A program made the translations under genes and the position numbers. Below are positions 3,201-52,032 of a stretch of 64,000 bases of DNA, one piece after another (position 1 is the stretch's first letter; each line of letters starts with the position of its first letter). The DNA comes from Physcomitrium patens (lineage: Eukaryota > Streptophyta > Bryopsida > Funariales > Funariaceae): the NCBI RefSeq assembly GCF_000002425.4, contig NC_037270.1:11447509-11511508 (forward strand), written 5' to 3'. The notes under the pieces are model-generated. The model worked only from the letters and a program-made list of their open reading frames with translations, was not told where the DNA came from and searched no databases.

Positions 3201-4572
3201 TTTTGATACAATCTATCACATGATTGTGTAGTTCATCAACAACTTGCCGATTTATAAGAAAGAATATCCACTCATATCACAAATCAAGCTACTACCAATC
3301 TATATAAAGCATTACAAATAATACACAATCTTTCTTATCATACATCCAATCTATGCAAAGCATTGCAATGGTCTCTATGGATATTGATATAATATGATTT
3401 TTGTTTAATATTCTAAATTTCAAAATAAAAAAAAAAAAAAAAATGACCAAGCATAAATAAACAATATAAGTAATTATGATTCTTATAAGGTAGCCAAATG
3501 TCTTGTCATCTAATTAGTGGCACACATGAATGGATTAATAAGATTCTCACTTTTCCTATCTATTATCTAGCAAAAATATATCCAAAAGAACAAACTTGAA
3601 AAAATTAGCAAAGATAGAAGATAAAAATATTGTTTTGATTTGCTAGGCTTCAAATAGATAAGAATTTATTTGTAAAGCTTGGCATATAATTCCTTTATTT
3701 TTGGGTGGGATACATAATATATATATATATATATATATAAAATAATTTTGGCAATCATAGAAGTTGTGGCAGAACGGTGAGGTGAAGAATTTGTCATAAG
3801 AGAAAAGAAAACAATGACATCAAGAAGAAGATGAAGTGCTGATGATCGTAGAGGACAAAAATTGATTAAATATATAAGATGGAGAAGGAGAGCTCGAGCA
3901 ACAACTTGAACCTACTCCAATGTTGTATAGTAATACAGCCATTAGGAGAAAGCAGAGAGGGAATTTTTTTATTATAGAAGAGCTTAAATTAAAAAATAAA
4001 TAAATAAATAACAAATTATCTTAAAAATATAGATAATAGACAAAGAGGTAGTAAAATTAATAAGAGCTAATATTACCTTCTTATAGAAGAAACTTATATT
4101 TACTTTATAGGAACATAAATGAGCCAAATTAAAATAAATAAGATATGTAATTAATATAGGCATCTTTAGAAAGAAGTTTAAAATGGCTTTTAAAAAAATT
4201 ACCTTAAATTACTAAGAATTGATATCTGAAGAGGACCAATTATGAATCAAGGTCAAAATTAGATCTTAAGGAACAAAACCATATACCTACAATGACTCTA
4301 GAGTTTTTAGCTCAATTGAAAAATGGGATTTGGAAGAAAACTTGTGACAAGATTTTTGAAAGTTGATTTCATGTGATTTGAAGGTATAATGAGGTTTTGA
4401 GAGCTTTTCAAAGTGAGAGATGTATTCTATAGTTTGGATTTTATGAAATAAAAAGAAGTTTATAAATTTGATGATTTTGTGATTGTTGCAATATACTTAT
4501 ATGTGAAAATTTGTTAGTTGTTTAGTGTGCTTTTTATAAATGTGTAAGAAAATTTTTATATCAATTGAGTAG

Positions 4573-5636: not shown

Positions 5637-8600
5637 CTACACCGCGGGCTCAGCTTCCTGGGAGGGCATAAATGGATGAGTAGTAGTGCGTGGGTACATG
5701 ATCACCGCCAGCATGGCCATGATGGCTGTGCCAAGGGCCCCAGCTAACGGGTTTCTAACATGTGCACCTGTGAACCAGGTGGGCGCATTGTGCATATATT
5801 GCACTATCCCTCCAACAGTTAACACATAGTTGATTGATACAAGGCCCGCGTGGAGTCCTATAGGAAATGCCAAGTTGCGGTTCATCTTCGCCCGTGCACC
5901 TGCTAAGGCCACCGATAGAAACCAAAGGCCTGGCATTGCCGGCGGTGACCTGCACAGCCAACATGTAAAATCATCTCAGTATCTCTAACATGTTCAAAAC
6001 CGATTTTGTAATTAGCGAATATATATATATATATGATGTGTGTGTGAGAGAGAGAAATAATGATAAGAAACGAAAATTTTCCAATGCATGAAAATTTCAC
6101 CCACCAGTGCACTAGTGCAAATGCAACAGCGGATAAAAACACAGCTTTGTGAAACCCCAAATCAACCGCAATCTCTTCTTGCAACCACGCTCTGAAAAGA
6201 ACTTCCTCTACAAGCGCCACCGCCAGTCCAACTCCGACTGCTTGTCCCAAAAGCTTACTAATTTTGATGAATGTAAACAATGCGACTCCTGCAGTACCTA
6301 CTTGTCACAAAGGCCCCAGATACTTTTTCAGGATACAAACAGAAGCAAAAAATTCTTACTTGAGACAAATTGAGGGTAGTAGCCAGAACAAGAAGGTTTA
6401 CAGTAACTTTTACCAGGAAGTTTGGGATTTGTAGCAAACAGCACATTCCAATTGAATTGTACGTAGCCCAAGATGAAATTTGAGCTGTACAAGAATGTGA
6501 CCAATCCACCACCCAAGGCTAAGCCCAAGCCTAAATCTTTAGCCTAGACAGCGGATAAACAAACTGTTAGTTGGGTATAACAGAATAAAGTGTTGTGCAA
6601 GCGCTATTATGACATCTTAAAAGCAACTTGAAGAATGTACCTTTCGCTTAGACCAGAAACGAAGACCATAACGTAGAAGAGGCTTATTGTAGCCACGAAC
6701 TCGCTTCCCCCAGATTGTAACGAGAATGAGAATAGCCCCATACAAACCAACCACAGATGCAGCATCGGCGACCCCGCCTGGTGCTTTGGTAGCCCATTGT
6801 TGCAACAATGAGGGCAAGACGGGTATCAATACAGGAGACCACAACAATACAACCATTGCAGCAAATCCAACAAGCCTGTTATACAAGGGACACAAGAAGC
6901 AACTCGTCAACACCAATTCAAGAAATAAAAATTGACAAAACTTGGCTCCTTGAATATATCGCAAACTTAGCTTCTCTCATTCTGTGCGTAAAGACAAATT
7001 GTTGTTTCTAGTGAAGGCAAGTCTTGCAATGAGTAGAGCAAAGGATTAGGAGCACCTCAGATGTAGTGGACGTTGATTCACTTGTAAAAAGACTAGAAGA
7101 CGATCAGTAAGGCTCATAGCACCCCGCAGACCACCCCATAGAAGCGCTACTTTACCAATAAGTCGAAGGAAGCCACCCCTCTGCCCAAGTTCTGCTAACA
7201 TTGCCACCAACCTGCATGAAAATTATTTTCCACAGGTTTCAAGGTACTAAAATAAGTCCATCTTCATCCTGGGGGAAAATCTTGTGTAGGCGCCATATAA
7301 AAGTGTTCCTATGTATGGCATACACACTAACTAGTTACCAGTTTGTTCAATAGAATAAATGTAAATCCCAATTTTTACTCACGTACCTCTCATGATCTAT
7401 CTCCCCATCCTCCTTGTGAGGAACCACTGGCGCTGCTACTGATAATGCCTTCTCAGCCAAAGGATGGATGCTGGAAATGATACCTGCTCTAACACGCTCC
7501 TTTTCCATATCCTTATTAACACCCTCAATGGGTTGACCATCTTTTTGCACTCCTGGATCATCCTTGTTCGACATATTCATTCCGGCAAGTGTGGCGCCAC
7601 CGGTGACAGCTGCAGCCATCATATTCATAACTTTGCTTCGCTTATTGCCTTCTGCTTTATCTTCCTCAACATCACATGATTCTTCCAATTCCGAAGATTG
7701 ATCATCCTCATCGGATGTACCACCATCTACAGCTTCCGCTGCCTCCACTTCAGGATCTTCCAACTCAGAAAATCCACTTATCGGGCTTTCACTGCGGCGG
7801 TTTATACTTAGAACTGGAACATCCACAGCAGATTCTTTTACTTTATGCCATGAAGAGTTGTTAGATTCAGCATCACTAGCACATGGGTCTTCTTCGGGTT
7901 CTTTGGCTATTTCTTCTTCTCCTTCACCACCAACTTTCTTATTATCCTCTTCTTTATCCTGGTCCTTATCAGTGACGATTAAATACACTGCACCTAGGGA
8001 AGCCAAAATAACACCCGTTAGCACTCCAATAGGAACCAATCCGCCCAAAATGCGGGTGCCTCCCATGACGGTGCCAAGAGCACTAATTACCGTATCAGAT
8101 GATAAAATTCCTGATTTTCCAGCATCTAACCCACCAGCACTGGATCCCTTTTTCCACCTTTGAACTGCAACAGCTACTGAATTAGCTACCTTGCCAACCT
8201 CTTGCTCTAAATCGATTCCCAGAGATTCCATTCCTGCAACTCCCAACCTTCTCAGTAATTCCAACTTTAGAGCATCCTTCAACATATCTTCAATTGGGTT
8301 TGAAGCCTTCATTTCATTGATTCCCGTCACCTCTGCCTCGATGGTCCCGTCATCGTGCACTGTATCTTCTCCAGAACTGTTGTCTTCATTACCGATTTCC
8401 TGGTCGATTTCCTGTGACAACTGCTCTATGGTCATGCCACTAATAACTGGCTTAGTAGAATCTTCTACTTGCATCAACTTTCTTTGTTGAGTTTCAAAAG
8501 CTTCCTGTCCTACGGAAAAGCCTTTGGGTTTGGAGGCTACACCATTCACACTTGGGAGTGAGTCATCAGTTGATGATTCAAGAGTTCGACCATTCAACGG

Positions 8601-20019: not shown

Positions 20020-20349
20020 TTATTCTTTCTTAAGTCCTCGAGCTGCCCAAGCCGGAGTCGTAGTTCCAGCAGTTACTAAGCTTGGAGCCGAGCCGGACTC
20101 ATCACCTATGTGATCGTGCTCATCTGTATGTAGGTCGTTGGCGGGGTTGTGACTGAAAATGGGGTCCATTCTCCGATCCTTGGCTCTGTTTGTTGATCTG
20201 TTTACTTACTCTAATGAGATTGCCCAAGTTAAAACTTTTTTTGTGTGATGAGGTTACCCCTGCTGTAGGGCTCGCTCCCTTTTAGCGTCGATATACCATT
20301 CATTTCATGGATTCGGTAGAGCAGTTCCAGTGGTTTTGAGGCAGTAGAT

Positions 20350-20434
20350 AGCCCGAGGACGATGGAAAATTCTGCAATGCTGATGTAATTTATTGCAAGT
20401 GTTGATAAAACTACACATTCAAATCTGATGGGCT
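20350..20434 (+). pseudogene. Degenerate copy of the box C/D snoRNA
   Basis: This segment aligns with the intronic snoRNA about 600 bp downstream. It keeps the guide TTCTGCAATG (20370-20379), the CTGA box after it (20380-20383), a terminal CTGA (20425-20428) and a short AGCCC/GGGCT stem (20350-20354 with 20430-20434). The box C position reads ATGGAAA (20362-20368) instead of ATGATGA, and the stem is shorter. It is probably a decayed or weak duplicate. It overlaps the ATG proposed for the Vma12-like gene, which adds doubt to that start. Confidence 0.6.
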
Positions 20435-22074
20435 TTGAAGGAAATTCTCGACTTTTTGCTTTGGAAAGCGGAAGGTCGGTTAGAAATCATCGTATTTGGA
20501 GTGGTTTGGTTCTGTAGATTTTTGATTGTTGTGGGTGAGTCACAGTCCTTTGTTTATTCAGTTCTCCAGCGAATGAAGTTCAACTTTATGTACGCGTAAC
20601 GTGTTTGTTTGGTTACAGCACAGCAACTGGACTTGTGCTGCACTCGTGCCCCAATATCAAGTCCCTGCTTTCCAACGCTGCATCTTCCGAGAAGATATCA
20701 GTAGATCTGCGAGATGCAGCTCTGCTTTACTTGGACGCCCCTAGTGTGCCATATCCAATTATCCGGGATACATGGGCTCAACTTACTCCCGGATACGGCG
20801 TTCCCTTTCACCAAGTGCTTGCAGGCAGCTCATTTGTGCTCGAGAGTCCAAAGCCACGAGAGAAGGTATCCATACTGGAAATTCCTACTGTCGTAAGCTG
20901 TGTTGCAAATTCTCTCGATTCGAGTCCGTTCTGTTAAGGAATGGGTAGAATCAGGGTTCCGATGATGAAGATAAGTTCTGCAATGCTGATGTGAGACATC
21001 ACATGTTGAGAAATCAACACACAACGATGAACTGACGGTCCCTGATGTCTGTAAGTGTCATGTATCGATGTGTCGCTTTTGGTTTGTCATGTTTCACACA
21101 AGGTTCATCCTTGCTGGCATCTCTCTGCAATCATCTCAGGTTCATGGCAGAAAGTGACAATTTAAAGAGTATCTTAGTCGCTCTTTACATGTCCTTTTTC
21201 CAATGTACATGTCATCATCTGTGTCTTTCATGTCGAAATGCAAGTACTGGTAATTGGATTTTCTCTTTTGGTTCCTGTGACTAATCCTATTGATTCTGTG
21301 TGCAGTCGAAGGAGCTGGTAGATCGCCTTGCCAAGCTTCAAGACCTCGCTGATAAAAATGCTTATAAAGAACTTGTGAAGGATGTAACTAAGAGTGCCGA
21401 TGATGATCGAGAGTACTTTTCCTCGTACAAAAATTCTCTTGGATTTGGTAATTGCATCTCGCTGTCTTCCATTTTAATTTACATTATCTCCACACCTACT
21501 GTCATTCTCATGCTGCTACGTGTTGTATGTAAGTGCGGGATGCCCCAAGCACGTTGAGTCTTTCCTTTGAAATTTACTGCTTAATTTCATTTTTCCAGGG
21601 ATACACGTGTTGTTCATCATGTTCACAGGCTACATGTTTGGATACGCAATTGTTCGGTCACAGTTTCCGGAATCACCACCAATGGTGGGTTTCTGATCCT
21701 TACCAATTCTCGCAGTTCATCCGCTTGTTTCTCTCATGGATCCCGAAATAGTTTTTTCCTAAGATATCGGTACGGCTATCTAAACATTGGATGAATTTGT
21801 GCAGCATGCAGTGGGAGGGGTATTTGGTCTTATCGCCGGGATGTTCGTAGAGACTATCCTTTTTATCACCCGGGCACAGATGGCGGAGAAAAGACAGCAA
21901 CTGAGAGCTAATGTGAAAGCCAAGGCTGGAAAGCAGCCGCCATCAAATTTTGAGCCTGTGGCAAACACCTCATCAAACGCATCAGAGATTCTTGACTACC
22001 AGTCTGAGATTCAGGAAGAAGAGGCATCTACAGGAATACGCCAACGTCGTGGAGTGCCGAAGTCTCTAAATTAG
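20428..22074 (+). CDS. Vma12/TMEM199-like ER factor for V-ATPase assembly
   Basis: Four downstream exons are well supported: 20619-20865, 21306-21447, 21599-21684 and 21805-22074. A tentative first exon at 20428-20474 gives 263 residues with consistent phases. The N-terminal half carries the SVPY and SPKPREK blocks, followed by a helical KELVDRLAKLQ segment. Two membrane helices follow (HVLFIMFTGYMFGYAIV and VGGVFGLIAGMFVETILFI) and then a basic to acidic C-terminal tail. This matches the plant Vma12 family (Arabidopsis At5g52980 type), ER membrane proteins that help assemble the V0 sector of vacuolar H+-ATPase. The first exon is uncertain: its donor is weak, its ATG overlaps a snoRNA relic, and a much stronger donor (GTGAGT at 20532) follows in non-coding frame. 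The intron 20866-21305 hosts a snoRNA. Confidence 0.82.
20950..21046 (+). ncRNA. Intronic box C/D snoRNA, guide for 5.8S rRNA Gm79 (snoR39BY-like)
   Basis: Box C ATGATGA is at 20962-20968 and box D CTGA at 21032-21035. The flanks form a terminal stem: ATCAGGG (20950-20956) pairs with CCCTGAT (21040-21046), then a small bulge, then CCG (20959-20961) with CGG (21036-21038). An internal CTGA (20986-20989) serves as box D'. Upstream of it, TTCTGCAAT (20976-20984) is complementary to AUUGCAGAA of plant 5.8S rRNA. The fifth base before D' (C20981) pairs with G79, a methylated site in Arabidopsis 5.8S assigned to snoR39BY. That assignment is from memory. The RNA would be released from the Vma12-like intron. 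A possible second guide lies upstream of box D; I do not know its target. Confidence 0.82.
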
Positions 22075-47109: not shown

Positions 47110-48775
47110 ATGAAGAGGAATATTTGTGGAGGCGATGGGATATCGCTAGGTAAAGAAGCAGGGACTAAGATTTTGGAGTTGGTGATGGCGTGGTTGCGAC
47201 CGCAGGAGCTTGCGAACCTTGCATGCGTGTCTCAATTCATGGCGACTGCTGTCCGGAACCTTACTCATCGCAGGATGGCGGACGCAGCTCAGGGACTGGA
47301 GCGGTGGCCTGTGCCGGTACGCAATGACCTTGATTCCCTCCGCTACCCGTGGTTCCAATATACCCCCTCTTGTTGCCGCAATGCATCGAGGTATGCGCAC
47401 CCTTGGGGTGTGGAATCCGATTCGTGTACAGAGCATGGTTCTGTAATGCGAAGGTGTCAGGAGGATCTGGGTATTTATCCTTTCTCCGGGGTTTTAAGCT
47501 CCGTGGGATGCAGGTGAGCATAGTCCTAGAATCATTTTAATACCGTCATAATTTAGGGTTTAGAGTTTAAGCACTCGTATTTCTTCTTATTTTATACTTG
47601 CCTGCACGCCCTCTTTTGATCAATCTTAATTAATTCGTGGATACTACAGATGGCAAATTTCGGGTTTTTGCAGTCTTTTCACATTCGATTATGTTGCAGA
47701 ATTGTATTTATACTTCTGTTGATTGACCAGTGGAGAATATTGTATCAGGTAGTTGTGATGCTAACTATTACTCTTGATAATACAGGTGTGCTGACCGTTG
47801 CGTTCTTGCACAGCAGAATCATGGCGATGGTAAACATGTCATATCTGACGATACGAATTCTACGTGTGCCTGCGGGTTCACAAGCGACGGAGTGAACGCA
47901 TACACGCACGAGTCCAAGATGCAGTTAGTGGACAAACGTAGCAATGGGACAGATGCGTCTAAAAATAGGATTGACTCAAAGTCCATCTTTTCTAATGAGG
48001 TTTCATTGAAGGCCAATGATGCCTCAGAAAATATGACTTTCTGGACTGAGTGGAAGTCCCTCGAACTTTCTGATGACGACAGTGGTGTGAATGAAGAACC
48101 GCCACTTGTTTTGGAGTGTGGAGGAGCATGTATCTGCAGTGCAGATTGTTGCCATCGAGTTACACAGCAAGGTCTCTCTGCCCGCGTCGTTGTCACTCGT
48201 CAACGTTTTACGGGTTGGGGTTTACACGCTGCACAGCACATCAGCAAAGGCTCATTCGTCTGTGAATACGCAGGTGGGCATGAGATCATCTCTTAATTTA
48301 ATGAATTTTGTTATCATATATTTAACAGGGGGATCATTAAAGAAATGCAAAAAGAACTATATATTTACTACTGAAATTCTTTTGCACAGGTGAACTGCTA
48401 ACAACTGTGCAATCTCGAGAGCGTCAGAGCTTATATGATGCCGGAAATACCTCATGTGGTTCTGCGTTATTGGTTGTGCGAGAGTACATGCCCTCAGGAG
48501 AGGCGTGTGTTCGGATCAACGTAGATGCTACTAAAGTAGGAAATGTGGCTCGTTTTATCAATCACGCTTGTGACGGGGGCAATTTGTTGCCCTGCTTAGT
48601 GAGAGCATCTGGTTCAGTAATCCCCAGATTAGCGTTATTTGCCAGGCAAGATATTCACGATGGAGAAGAGTTGAGATACAGCTATGGCAGTTGCGGCGGA
48701 GTAGCTGGGAAAGTGTTACCATGCTACTGCGGAACTCCTGCTTGTTTTGGCACACTTCCATCTGAGAGCACATAG
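47110..48775 (+). CDS. SUVR3: SUVR3-like histone-lysine N-methyltransferase (SET domain)
   Basis: Three exons, 47110-47390, 47786-48273 and 48390-48775, give 384 residues with exact phases. Residues 1-94 form the leucine-rich, F-box-like N-terminus typical of SUVR3 (LELVMAWLRPQELANLACVS), then DSLRYPWFQYTP. A Cys-rich pre-SET stretch follows (CACGF and CGGACICSADCCHRVTQ). The SET core has RFTGWGLHAAQHISKGSFVCEYAG, the AdoMet-binding NVARFINHACDGGNL (about 308-322), ELRYSYG and a post-SET CYCGTPACFG. Plant SUVR3 belongs to the Su(var)3-9-related group and lacks the YDG/SRA domain; it is expected to methylate histone H3 in the nucleus. Arabidopsis SUVR3 is about 340-355 residues. The usual NHSC is NHAC here, a mild change at a variable site. 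Confidence 0.92.
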
Positions 48776-49549: not shown

Positions 49550-52032
49550 CTATCTCGATCTAGACCACTGGGCATCTCCGTCACGGATTGCCTTCTCGAT
49601 CAAAGACGAATTCTCCTTGGCCCGACCCCAGACCACATCAACATGCCCTTTCTCAGGCACTCCCACAAGCTTCACGTTCGAGAAAGTGCGGCTCATCTCT
49701 TCTGCCAAATGGAACTGGATCGATGTGTCAATCTCACCGTGAATGACGAGAACTTGGTGCCCACTTTCCCTGAGATTTATCAATGCTGGAATGACAGCAT
49801 GTGTGCCCGCCAGCAAGGAGTTGTGAGCGATATGCCAAGCAGCGTCATGGTAGTTTGTAAGATAATCGTGGATAAATGATCTTGGATACTCTTTCCTGCA
49901 AGCCAAGTCCACCTCTCAAAATTCACACATATTCTCAAAGAATTGATGACTGAAGCTCAAAGAATCCCCGAACTAAATTTGCAAGGTGCGCTACTAGGGA
50001 AATTTAACAAAATCAATTAAGGGAAGAATTTTAGGACATTTAGAACCAGGATGCACTCCAGAAACGTAAAGCTGCACAGCTTGGGTGGCAATTGAACTTA
50101 CTTTTTGCCAATGAGGTTGTGGAAGCGATCCACCCAGAACGTATGTTTCGCGTAGAATAAATGCCCTAGAAGTCGGCTGATGTTATAGTACTTGCAAACA
50201 GTGAGCGCACGGATACCTTTCAACTGCCACAACAATTCACGAGCGCATAAAAACAAAATCCCAGTAAACAAAACCCCAGCAAAGAATGCCATTGCCCCAG
50301 CAAAGAATGCCATTGAGTTAACCTTAGAAAAGCTCAGCAAATATGATTTGGAGCATTAGAAATAAACTTACTGTTAGCGGATCGAGGAAGGAGAAGAAGG
50401 CATCACATGGGACATGTGCAATTTCCCCGTCCTCGTTTAGACAGCTGGGAGGATACACAGGCGCAATCAGGGTAATTGACCTAACCCTCCGAGGGCAGCG
50501 TGCAGCGAGTGCAAGGGCAATGATCGAGCCCATGGAGTGCCCCACCAAGTGGAAGCTCTCTAACTTGTATTTCTGTATAACGGATTTCTCTATGGCTTCA
50601 ATTTGGTCTGTAAGGGTGTAGAGACTGTCAACAGGACGTGGACTTCGTCCACATCCTAGAAGGTCTGGCGCTAATATGAGATGCTGATTCTTCACTTCGT
50701 GTGATAAATTGGAAACTATATCAGTGTCGAACCAAAATGTGGCGGAGCTGAACATGCCGTGGATAAAGATCACCGCAGTGCGTTCTGCACCCATGCAATC
50801 TCTTTAGTATCAAGAACTTCAAGTTCCCATTCTCTTCCTTTTAATGGAAATTCGCATGAAGACTTTACAAGCGCTGTTCAAACGTGTGCACGCTAAACAA
50901 AAGCAATTCGCAGGACACGAGTTTCTGGTGGGGATAAAAGATAGGATAGGGGCTGCGGAATAAGCGCGTTACCTTTTCCTTGAGTGACATCGTGGGACGG
51001 ACACCCGGCAGCTGACTTCGAGGGATTCGGTGACGCCGAACATGCTACGCTTGAGAGCTCTCCCTGCTTTCCTGAGTAAGTCTCTTCGCTCATCACATAC
51101 AACTTGTCTGATGCAACACGCATGGGCATCAGTAGCGGGGCACACTGGCTGCAATGACATTCGGACCACCGAGGCCGAATTACGGCTCCGTTCTCTCCTT
51201 CCTGACACCACTCCAAAATCCATCAGTCCCCATATTGTGCAAGGTCGACTAGAAATAACTAGAATCTTGATGATGGTCCAACGAATCGGCGAACGATAAT
51301 GTGGTGGAAACATTCGCAAATCCTTTCCTCAAGAGAAGAGTTCACCTGTGAGCGTGTGCCAACCGCCACAACATTATCTTCAAGTTCGTTTCGGATTTCG
51401 TCTCTCAACTCAATTGACTGGCTCTGTGGCAAAATTATTTGGTCGTCTTTGGATGTATTTGAACCCAATTTCTCCTCCGGCAACAAATCCTTCACTCTCC
51501 ATCCCCAGCACTCGCACCTCCGTCGGGGTATAGGCTTCGAATTGGAGCAATCCCACACCCAGCGCGTCCTAATCCTCTTAATCTCACCTCTACGCGGCGG
51601 TCTTTGTAAAACTTGGCTCCCATGCAATGCCTCTGCGTCGTAAGCCGTCTTCAAATCATCGTAATCAACAGACTGGGACAAAACGCTGCTGATGACAATA
51701 CTCTGCTGTTGTGATGATCTGTGCTCCAGGAATAAATCCATAATCCAATAAATGACGCCCACTAGGAGATCGATGATAAACATGGTCAGATACACGAGAT
51801 CCCCTAGAAATAGCCGCAGCTTCGTGGCATATTTCCGACGAAGTTGCTTGAATGCAACTTTTGGATTGACACGGGCGCGGCCATTTCTCTGATTGCGTTC
51901 AAACTTGCTGCGCTTGGCCAATGCGAAGGTGCCCCACACGGAGCACAACGCGGCAGCAGAGATCACACCCCAGTACAACGCCGGTGGATGACGCACGCTC
52001 TCCACCATTGTTTGGGCTGCCGCTCGATCCAT
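49550..52032 (-). CDS. BODYGUARD-like alpha/beta hydrolase
   Basis: Five exons, 52032-51283, 51201-50973, 50784-50372, 50223-50102 and 49895-49550, give 619 residues with exact phases. The ATG follows an in-frame TGA. The first exon (250 residues) carries two hydrophobic segments (about 20-40 and 75-105), the second a likely membrane anchor (LVYLTMFIIDLLVGVIYWIM). A basic/acidic stretch and the family block PRWSECHCSQC follow. The hydrolase domain has oxyanion FIHGMFSSATFW, DLLGCGRSPRP, nucleophile elbow GHSMGS (Ser near 410), VIHGEIDTSI (acid) and EKGHVDVV (His). Arabidopsis BODYGUARD proteins (about 470 residues) act in the epidermal wall and are needed for cutin and suberin deposition. This protein is longer at the N-terminus. 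A cuticle role is inferred from the family; the triad appears intact. Confidence 0.88.

Follow-up and report, generated by a model that had tools for sequence, protein, structure and literature searches.

The analysis of a 64,000-nucleotide stretch of the Physcomitrium patens genome (hereafter the window) indicates that positions 20950-21046 very probably encode an intronic box C/D snoRNA that would guide methylation of 5.8S rRNA (copy 2), and that a second, diverged element just upstream is its paralog (copy 1), the two lying 606 nt apart. Box C/D snoRNAs are stable RNAs bound by fibrillarin, Nop56/58 and the 15.5K protein. Copy 2 matches the RUGAUGA consensus of box C and the CUGA consensus of box D exactly, and in both copies a terminal stem, of 7+3 bp in copy 2 and 6 bp in copy 1, adjoins these boxes and brings them together (Table 1). 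Box C, box D, the internal D' box and the bulged 7+3 bp stem had all been described in the original prediction and were confirmed here; to these can now be added box C' and, between it and D', a hairpin of 5 bp. The MFE fold of copy 2 (-26.3 kcal/mol, z -1.90) contains the terminal stem, and its energy alone is weak evidence, since 9 of 200 shuffled sequences fold equally well. Part of the guide is paired with bases beside box D in this fold, a pairing that is absent from the centroid.

Table 1. Features of the putative snoRNA locus and of its predicted host gene, in window positions.
Feature	Position	Strand	Remark
Double telo box AAACCCTAACCCTAAA	20004..20019	+	upstream of host coding exons
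Putative diverged box C/D snoRNA, copy 1	20350..20434	+	stem AGCCCG/TGGGCT, 6 bp
Degenerate box C AGGACGA, copy 1	20356-20362	+	
Guide AATTCTGCAAT, copy 1	20368-20378	+	11 Watson-Crick bp to 5.8S
Box D', copy 1	20380-20383	+	
D'-C' hairpin, copy 1	20384-20397	+	
Box C' TGTTGAT, copy 1	20400-20406	+	
Box D, copy 1	20425-20428	+	exact
Coding exon upstream of the copy 2 intron	20619..20865	+	
Intron GTATCC...GTGCAG holding copy 2	20866..21305	+	exon frame continuity
Putative box C/D snoRNA, copy 2, with terminal stem	20950..21046	+	boxes, stem, fold, guide scan
Terminal stem of copy 2, 7 bp, ATCAGGG/CCCTGAT	20950-20956 / 21040-21046		
Terminal stem of copy 2, 3 bp, CCG/CGG	20959-20961 / 21036-21038		TT/T internal loop between parts
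Box C ATGATGA, copy 2	20962..20968	+	exact consensus
D' guide TTCTGCAAT, copy 2	20976..20984	+	9 Watson-Crick bp to 5.8S
Box D' CTGA, copy 2	20986..20989	+	
D'-C' hairpin, 5 bp, TGTGA gaca TCACA, copy 2	20990..21003	+	
Box C' TGTTGAG, copy 2	21004..21010	+	
Box D CTGA, copy 2	21032..21035	+	exact
Remaining coding exons and introns between	21306..22074	+	exons 21306-21447, 21599-21684, 21805-22074; stop TAG 22072-22074

The assignment of a target rests on a 5.8S reference composed of the best copy in the genome (on contig C24, scoring 120 bits and with damage in its 3' part) and of the Arabidopsis sequence. Against the genomic copy, the predicted nine-base pairing of the copy 2 guide was borne out by nine Watson-Crick pairs, which a G.U and an A-U pair extend to 11 bp. 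Opposite guide position 5 (the fifth base counted upstream from D') lies the G of the 5.8S motif ATTG, which corresponds to G79 in the Arabidopsis sequence. On that numbering the D-plus-5 rule lands, as had been proposed, on G79 (D'+5), and the fifth guide base thus faces a known 2'-O-methylated residue. Methylation of G79, invoked in the original prediction, has indeed been mapped in Arabidopsis (PMC8351944, PMC8053127), the equivalent human site being Gm75 (PMC8351944), and one report tabulates Gm79, Gm80, Gm78 and Gm75 together, which from the note to that table we take as the Arabidopsis, tomato, tobacco and human sites (PMC11542601). The Arabidopsis snoRNA that was said to serve this site also exists, as SnoR39BY, and methylation of G79 is reported to be strongly reduced in the hid1 mutant (PMC8053127).

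On the D side of copy 2, the spacer segment 21018-21026 (CACACAACG) can pair over 5+3 bp with the 5.8S segment CGTAGTGTG, directly upstream of the target, with -10.1 kcal/mol and 30 of 1000 shuffles as good. The D spacer of copy 1 gave no such additional pairing with 5.8S (289 and 240 of 1000 shuffles were as good), and we do not claim the one in copy 2, which is one of six tests and has no counterpart in copy 1. Given that the D-side guide has no recognised target and differs between the copies, each of them probably acts as a single-guide RNA.

Copy 1 was overlooked in the original prediction, which implied a single snoRNA, and our own scan of the window for box C and box D pairs could not register it, its box C being too degenerate. 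This box has two mismatches to the consensus and retains both GA dinucleotides. The block formed by guide and D' is identical between the copies at 17 of 17 positions, and in the remainder 40 of 63 ungapped columns agree. The innermost three pairs of the terminal stems are alike save for one G-C that is matched by a G.U, and the outer parts differ. Between the D'-C' hairpins there are two changes that preserve pairing, one of them two-sided and the other one-sided; covariation between two sequences is not significant in this case, since 254 of 500 shuffles reach the same level. The fold of copy 1 has a z of -1.85, equalled by 12 of 200 shuffles. We regard copy 1 as a paralog that carries the guide of copy 2 and is either a second gene of lesser strength or one in decay.

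The exons that flank copy 2 and those that follow share one continuous reading frame, so that copy 2 looks like an intronic element in a gene resembling an assembly factor of the proton pump (V-ATPase). The predicted protein matches the Pfam Vma12 family (PF11712) with 26.0 bits, barely passing the gathering cut-off of 25.5, and the Vma12-like host put forward earlier is thereby upheld, with copy 2 between in-frame exons. A search of the genome with the host protein returned four matches, each one of the host's own exons, and hence no paralog of the host was found. Several short first exons are possible for this gene. One candidate starts at the ATG at 20362 and encodes MENSAMLI; its GTAATT donor lies at 20385 and would join it in frame to the exon that follows. 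An alternative, ATGAG/GTTACC at 20248, yields MS. The MENSAMLI frame (20362-20384) overlaps copy 1, and coding and guide use may therefore compete there. If, on the other hand, the first exon of the host ends upstream of copy 1, then copy 1 sits in the first intron.

The route from this locus to a modified rRNA would be a standard one. We infer that RNA polymerase II would transcribe copy 2 within the Vma12 pre-mRNA and that the element would be freed from its intron either by splicing and debranching or by an endonucleolytic cut, after which its ends would be trimmed to the terminal stem. The resulting RNA would join the standard C/D proteins, fibrillarin among them, and its D' guide would direct 2'-O-methylation of the 5.8S residue that corresponds to G79 in Arabidopsis and to G75 in human.

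Three other accounts of the locus deserve consideration, the simplest being that boxes and a nine-nucleotide complement came together in an intron by chance. The fold energy of copy 2, unexceptional by itself, would agree with such an accident, and the motif of guide plus D' cannot be called rare on its own, since it is found exactly at 33 places in the genome searched (470 Mb, 101 contigs; the window lies on contig C18), two of which are the window copies. Yet in a control of 400 sequences of 64 kb, generated by a first-order Markov model and scanned on one strand, no box C and box D pair was accompanied by both a stem of 5 bp or more and a nine-nucleotide 5.8S guide, a combination that the window has once, in copy 2. 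Moreover, two copies of common architecture occur 606 nt from each other beside the exons of a single-locus gene, and a coincidence of this kind strikes us as highly improbable. It is a good deal easier to conceive that copy 2 is the sole working gene, copy 1 being either a dying pseudogene in which decay has yet to reach the guide, or a guide stretch that has been kept for some other reason (e.g. because it closes the first coding exon). The divergent box C of copy 1, an MFE fold that pairs its guide bases and the several possible start codons of the host, that of the MENSAMLI model among them, are all compatible with this reading. The guide of copy 1, however, pairs better with 5.8S than that of copy 2 (11 Watson-Crick pairs and -16.0 kcal/mol versus -13.7 kcal/mol), the 6-bp terminal stem beside box D has been retained, and so has the D'-C' hairpin, through one two-sided change. 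We thus see a decayed or repurposed copy 1 as a serious contender that falls somewhat short of probable.

The remaining account, in which the element is the snoR39BY ortholog and serves both 25S G814 and 5.8S G79, appears very improbable to us. The 5.8S target is common to the element and to Arabidopsis SnoR39BY, but a guide of the CTTTCGGG type, which we take from SNORD2 to be the form directed at 25S G814, is present in neither spacer of either copy, and the 5.8S guide occupies the D' position, the side that in the chicken homologue of snR39b/snoR39BY carries the guide for 28S. The original prediction had suggested a comparison with the snoR39BY family of Rfam; neither copy has a plant snoR39 family among its matches at E<=10 in Rfam 15, a release that may or may not contain snoR39BY. 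With the G814 guide absent and the 5.8S guide at D', the data point to a target shared with SnoR39BY rather than to a demonstrated family membership. What the two have in common is a box C/D structure and the 5.8S G79 residue as a site of 2'-O-methylation. SnoR39BY is reported to guide 25S G814 besides 5.8S G79, and SnoR39BYa belongs to the polycistronic HID1 cluster, whereas copy 2 lies in the intron of a protein gene (PMC8053127).

Our preferred reading, a duplicated intronic guide of 5.8S, is also informed by comparison with other known families. No Rfam family reaches its cut-off for either copy. The best match for both is RF01499 (Afu_191), with 23.2 and 19.8 bits, roughly one third of the gathering cut-off of 60 bits. 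Afu_191 is fungal (Aspergillus fumigatus), and nonetheless has the same D' guide with D' (TTCTGCAATnCTGA), a C' box TGTTGA and a CnACAC stretch before box D; judged by eye, its consensus would also permit a D'-C' hairpin. This resemblance, which does not establish descent, could stem from an ancient guide RNA or simply from a common target. In human, 5.8S Gm75 is guided by SNORD96, with the guide placed beside box D rather than D'. Rfam holds a SNORD96 family, which is absent from the matches of both copies at E<=10. Human Gm75 is the counterpart of Arabidopsis Gm79 (PMC8351944), the site considered here.

Further copies of the element were sought in the window and across the genome. On both strands of the window, four candidates have box C, box D and a stem no shorter than 5 bp, and only copy 2 among them carries this guide, which likewise turned up in none of the 100 sequences of a smaller Markov control. 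All the other 31 exact occurrences of guide plus D' in the genome were examined, and none has a convincing C/D layout; three of these places (L016, L035 and L038) show weak layouts at lax settings, and were rejected for their mismatched box C and stems of 4-5 bp. A box C followed by the guide is found at 49 genomic places. One of them is copy 2, 17 were rejected after examination by eye, and the other 31 were judged, from the printed letters only, to be one repeat. Querying the genome with the DNA of copy 2 returned copy 2 alone; copy 1 was missed too, which shows the short reach of this search, and diverged copies may exist elsewhere.

A separate moss snoR39BY was also looked for. The pattern CTTTCGGGNCTGA has 10 genomic sites, none of which shares a contig with the host gene; this number is at the level of chance, since the reversed control pattern gave 9; a weak C/D layout was seen at only one of these sites (L062). 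A looser pattern occurs at 445 places, and among the 100 that were listed, the 19 places (20 loci) examined did not reveal a moss snoR39BY. One of the regions matched is a tandem array (G000:C4:2815389-2826009, including L116 and L121) with at least 7 matches, mostly 1175-1184 nt apart, each of the form TGATGT...ATGTCATCTTTCGG. In the two units examined, AGCTGA follows ATGTCATCTTTCGG, and the arrangement resembles box C, a 25S G814 guide and D'. We rejected this array as snoR39BY, as no box D or stem was seen in it and Rfam gave no useful match.

The genomic setting of the locus can be compared with that of other plant snoRNAs, which are reported to be mostly polycistronic, with few intronic (PMC5122169); in rice, 31 of 109 snoRNA loci are intronic (PMC3022908). 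Telo boxes mark the promoters of ribosome-biogenesis and snoRNA genes in rice and Arabidopsis, including those of intronic-snoRNA hosts (PMC3022908, PMC4660826). As in the intronic loci of these two species, nested in introns and with many hosts bearing 5' telo boxes (PMC3022908), copy 2 is nested in an intron and a double telo box precedes the coding exons of its host. By analogy, co-expression of the host with ribosome genes seems plausible. The locus differs from those of rice and Arabidopsis in having a V-ATPase assembly factor as its apparent host, in belonging to a moss and in showing a telo box without site II upstream of copy 1: no site II, the usual partner of the telo box, occurs in the stretch from the telo box to copy 1, and the TGGGCT at 20429 is a strand of the copy 1 stem. 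The telo-box count is not evidence alone, since the two occurrences of AAACCCTAA in the window, against 0.71 expected, are reached by 14 of 100 shuffles. The sole other AAACCCTAA telo box in the window lies at 47553-47561 on the minus strand.

The locus adds one more case to a familiar class of RNA gene, and its mechanism is standard. In the sources searched we found no precedent for the host, for the duplication or for a 5.8S guide kept apart from that of 25S. The original prediction considered the host arrangement undescribed and, consistent with this, no title on a Vma12-hosted snoRNA, or on a moss snoRNA guiding 5.8S, was found among the titles listed, which came mostly from non-subscription literature. 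The V1.6 annotation of P. patens describes snoRNA loci (PMC3729371) and may list this one without comment on host or target. It is tempting to go further and propose that the guide of 5.8S Gm79 in this moss is a stand-alone, duplicated Vma12-intron snoRNA, distinct from the 25S guide of SNORD2/snR39b type; we put this forward tentatively, regarding it as possible and somewhat doubtful. Were it true, the 5.8S guide would either have been brought into snoR39BY in flowering plants or have left it in mosses, and would have passed between snoRNAs, and between the intron of a protein gene and a polycistron. The literature searched yielded little on snoRNA guides of early-diverging land plants, and the locus offers, for one such plant, an RNA that may guide a 5.8S methylation common to flowering plants and human. 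The history of guide turnover is made testable by the host and by the absence of a 25S guide, and the presence of two copies in one gene allows a simple deletion test.

Remnants of rDNA were encountered at several points of the analysis. The assembly contains no exact copy of an ultra-conserved 25S motif, and intact rDNA thus seems to be missing from it; in the other sequence collections, the search for eukaryotic 25S gave a fragment in one contig and a second contig without an Rfam match. Positions 3337-3544 of the window hold a fragment of nuclear 25S rRNA (25% GC, 66 bits to RF02543) that resembles a decayed rDNA insertion. Degenerate 5.8S copies occur on different contigs of the assembly (G000 C5, C18, C1, C9 and C25; L041-L045), with 68-80% identity to Arabidopsis 5.8S where the two align and, by eye, many C-to-T-like changes. 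Elsewhere in the window, three of the seven reading frames submitted to a domain search gave matches, namely a SET domain (48407-48775), an alpha/beta hydrolase (50324-50794) and an Rce1-like CAAX protease (5903-6280).
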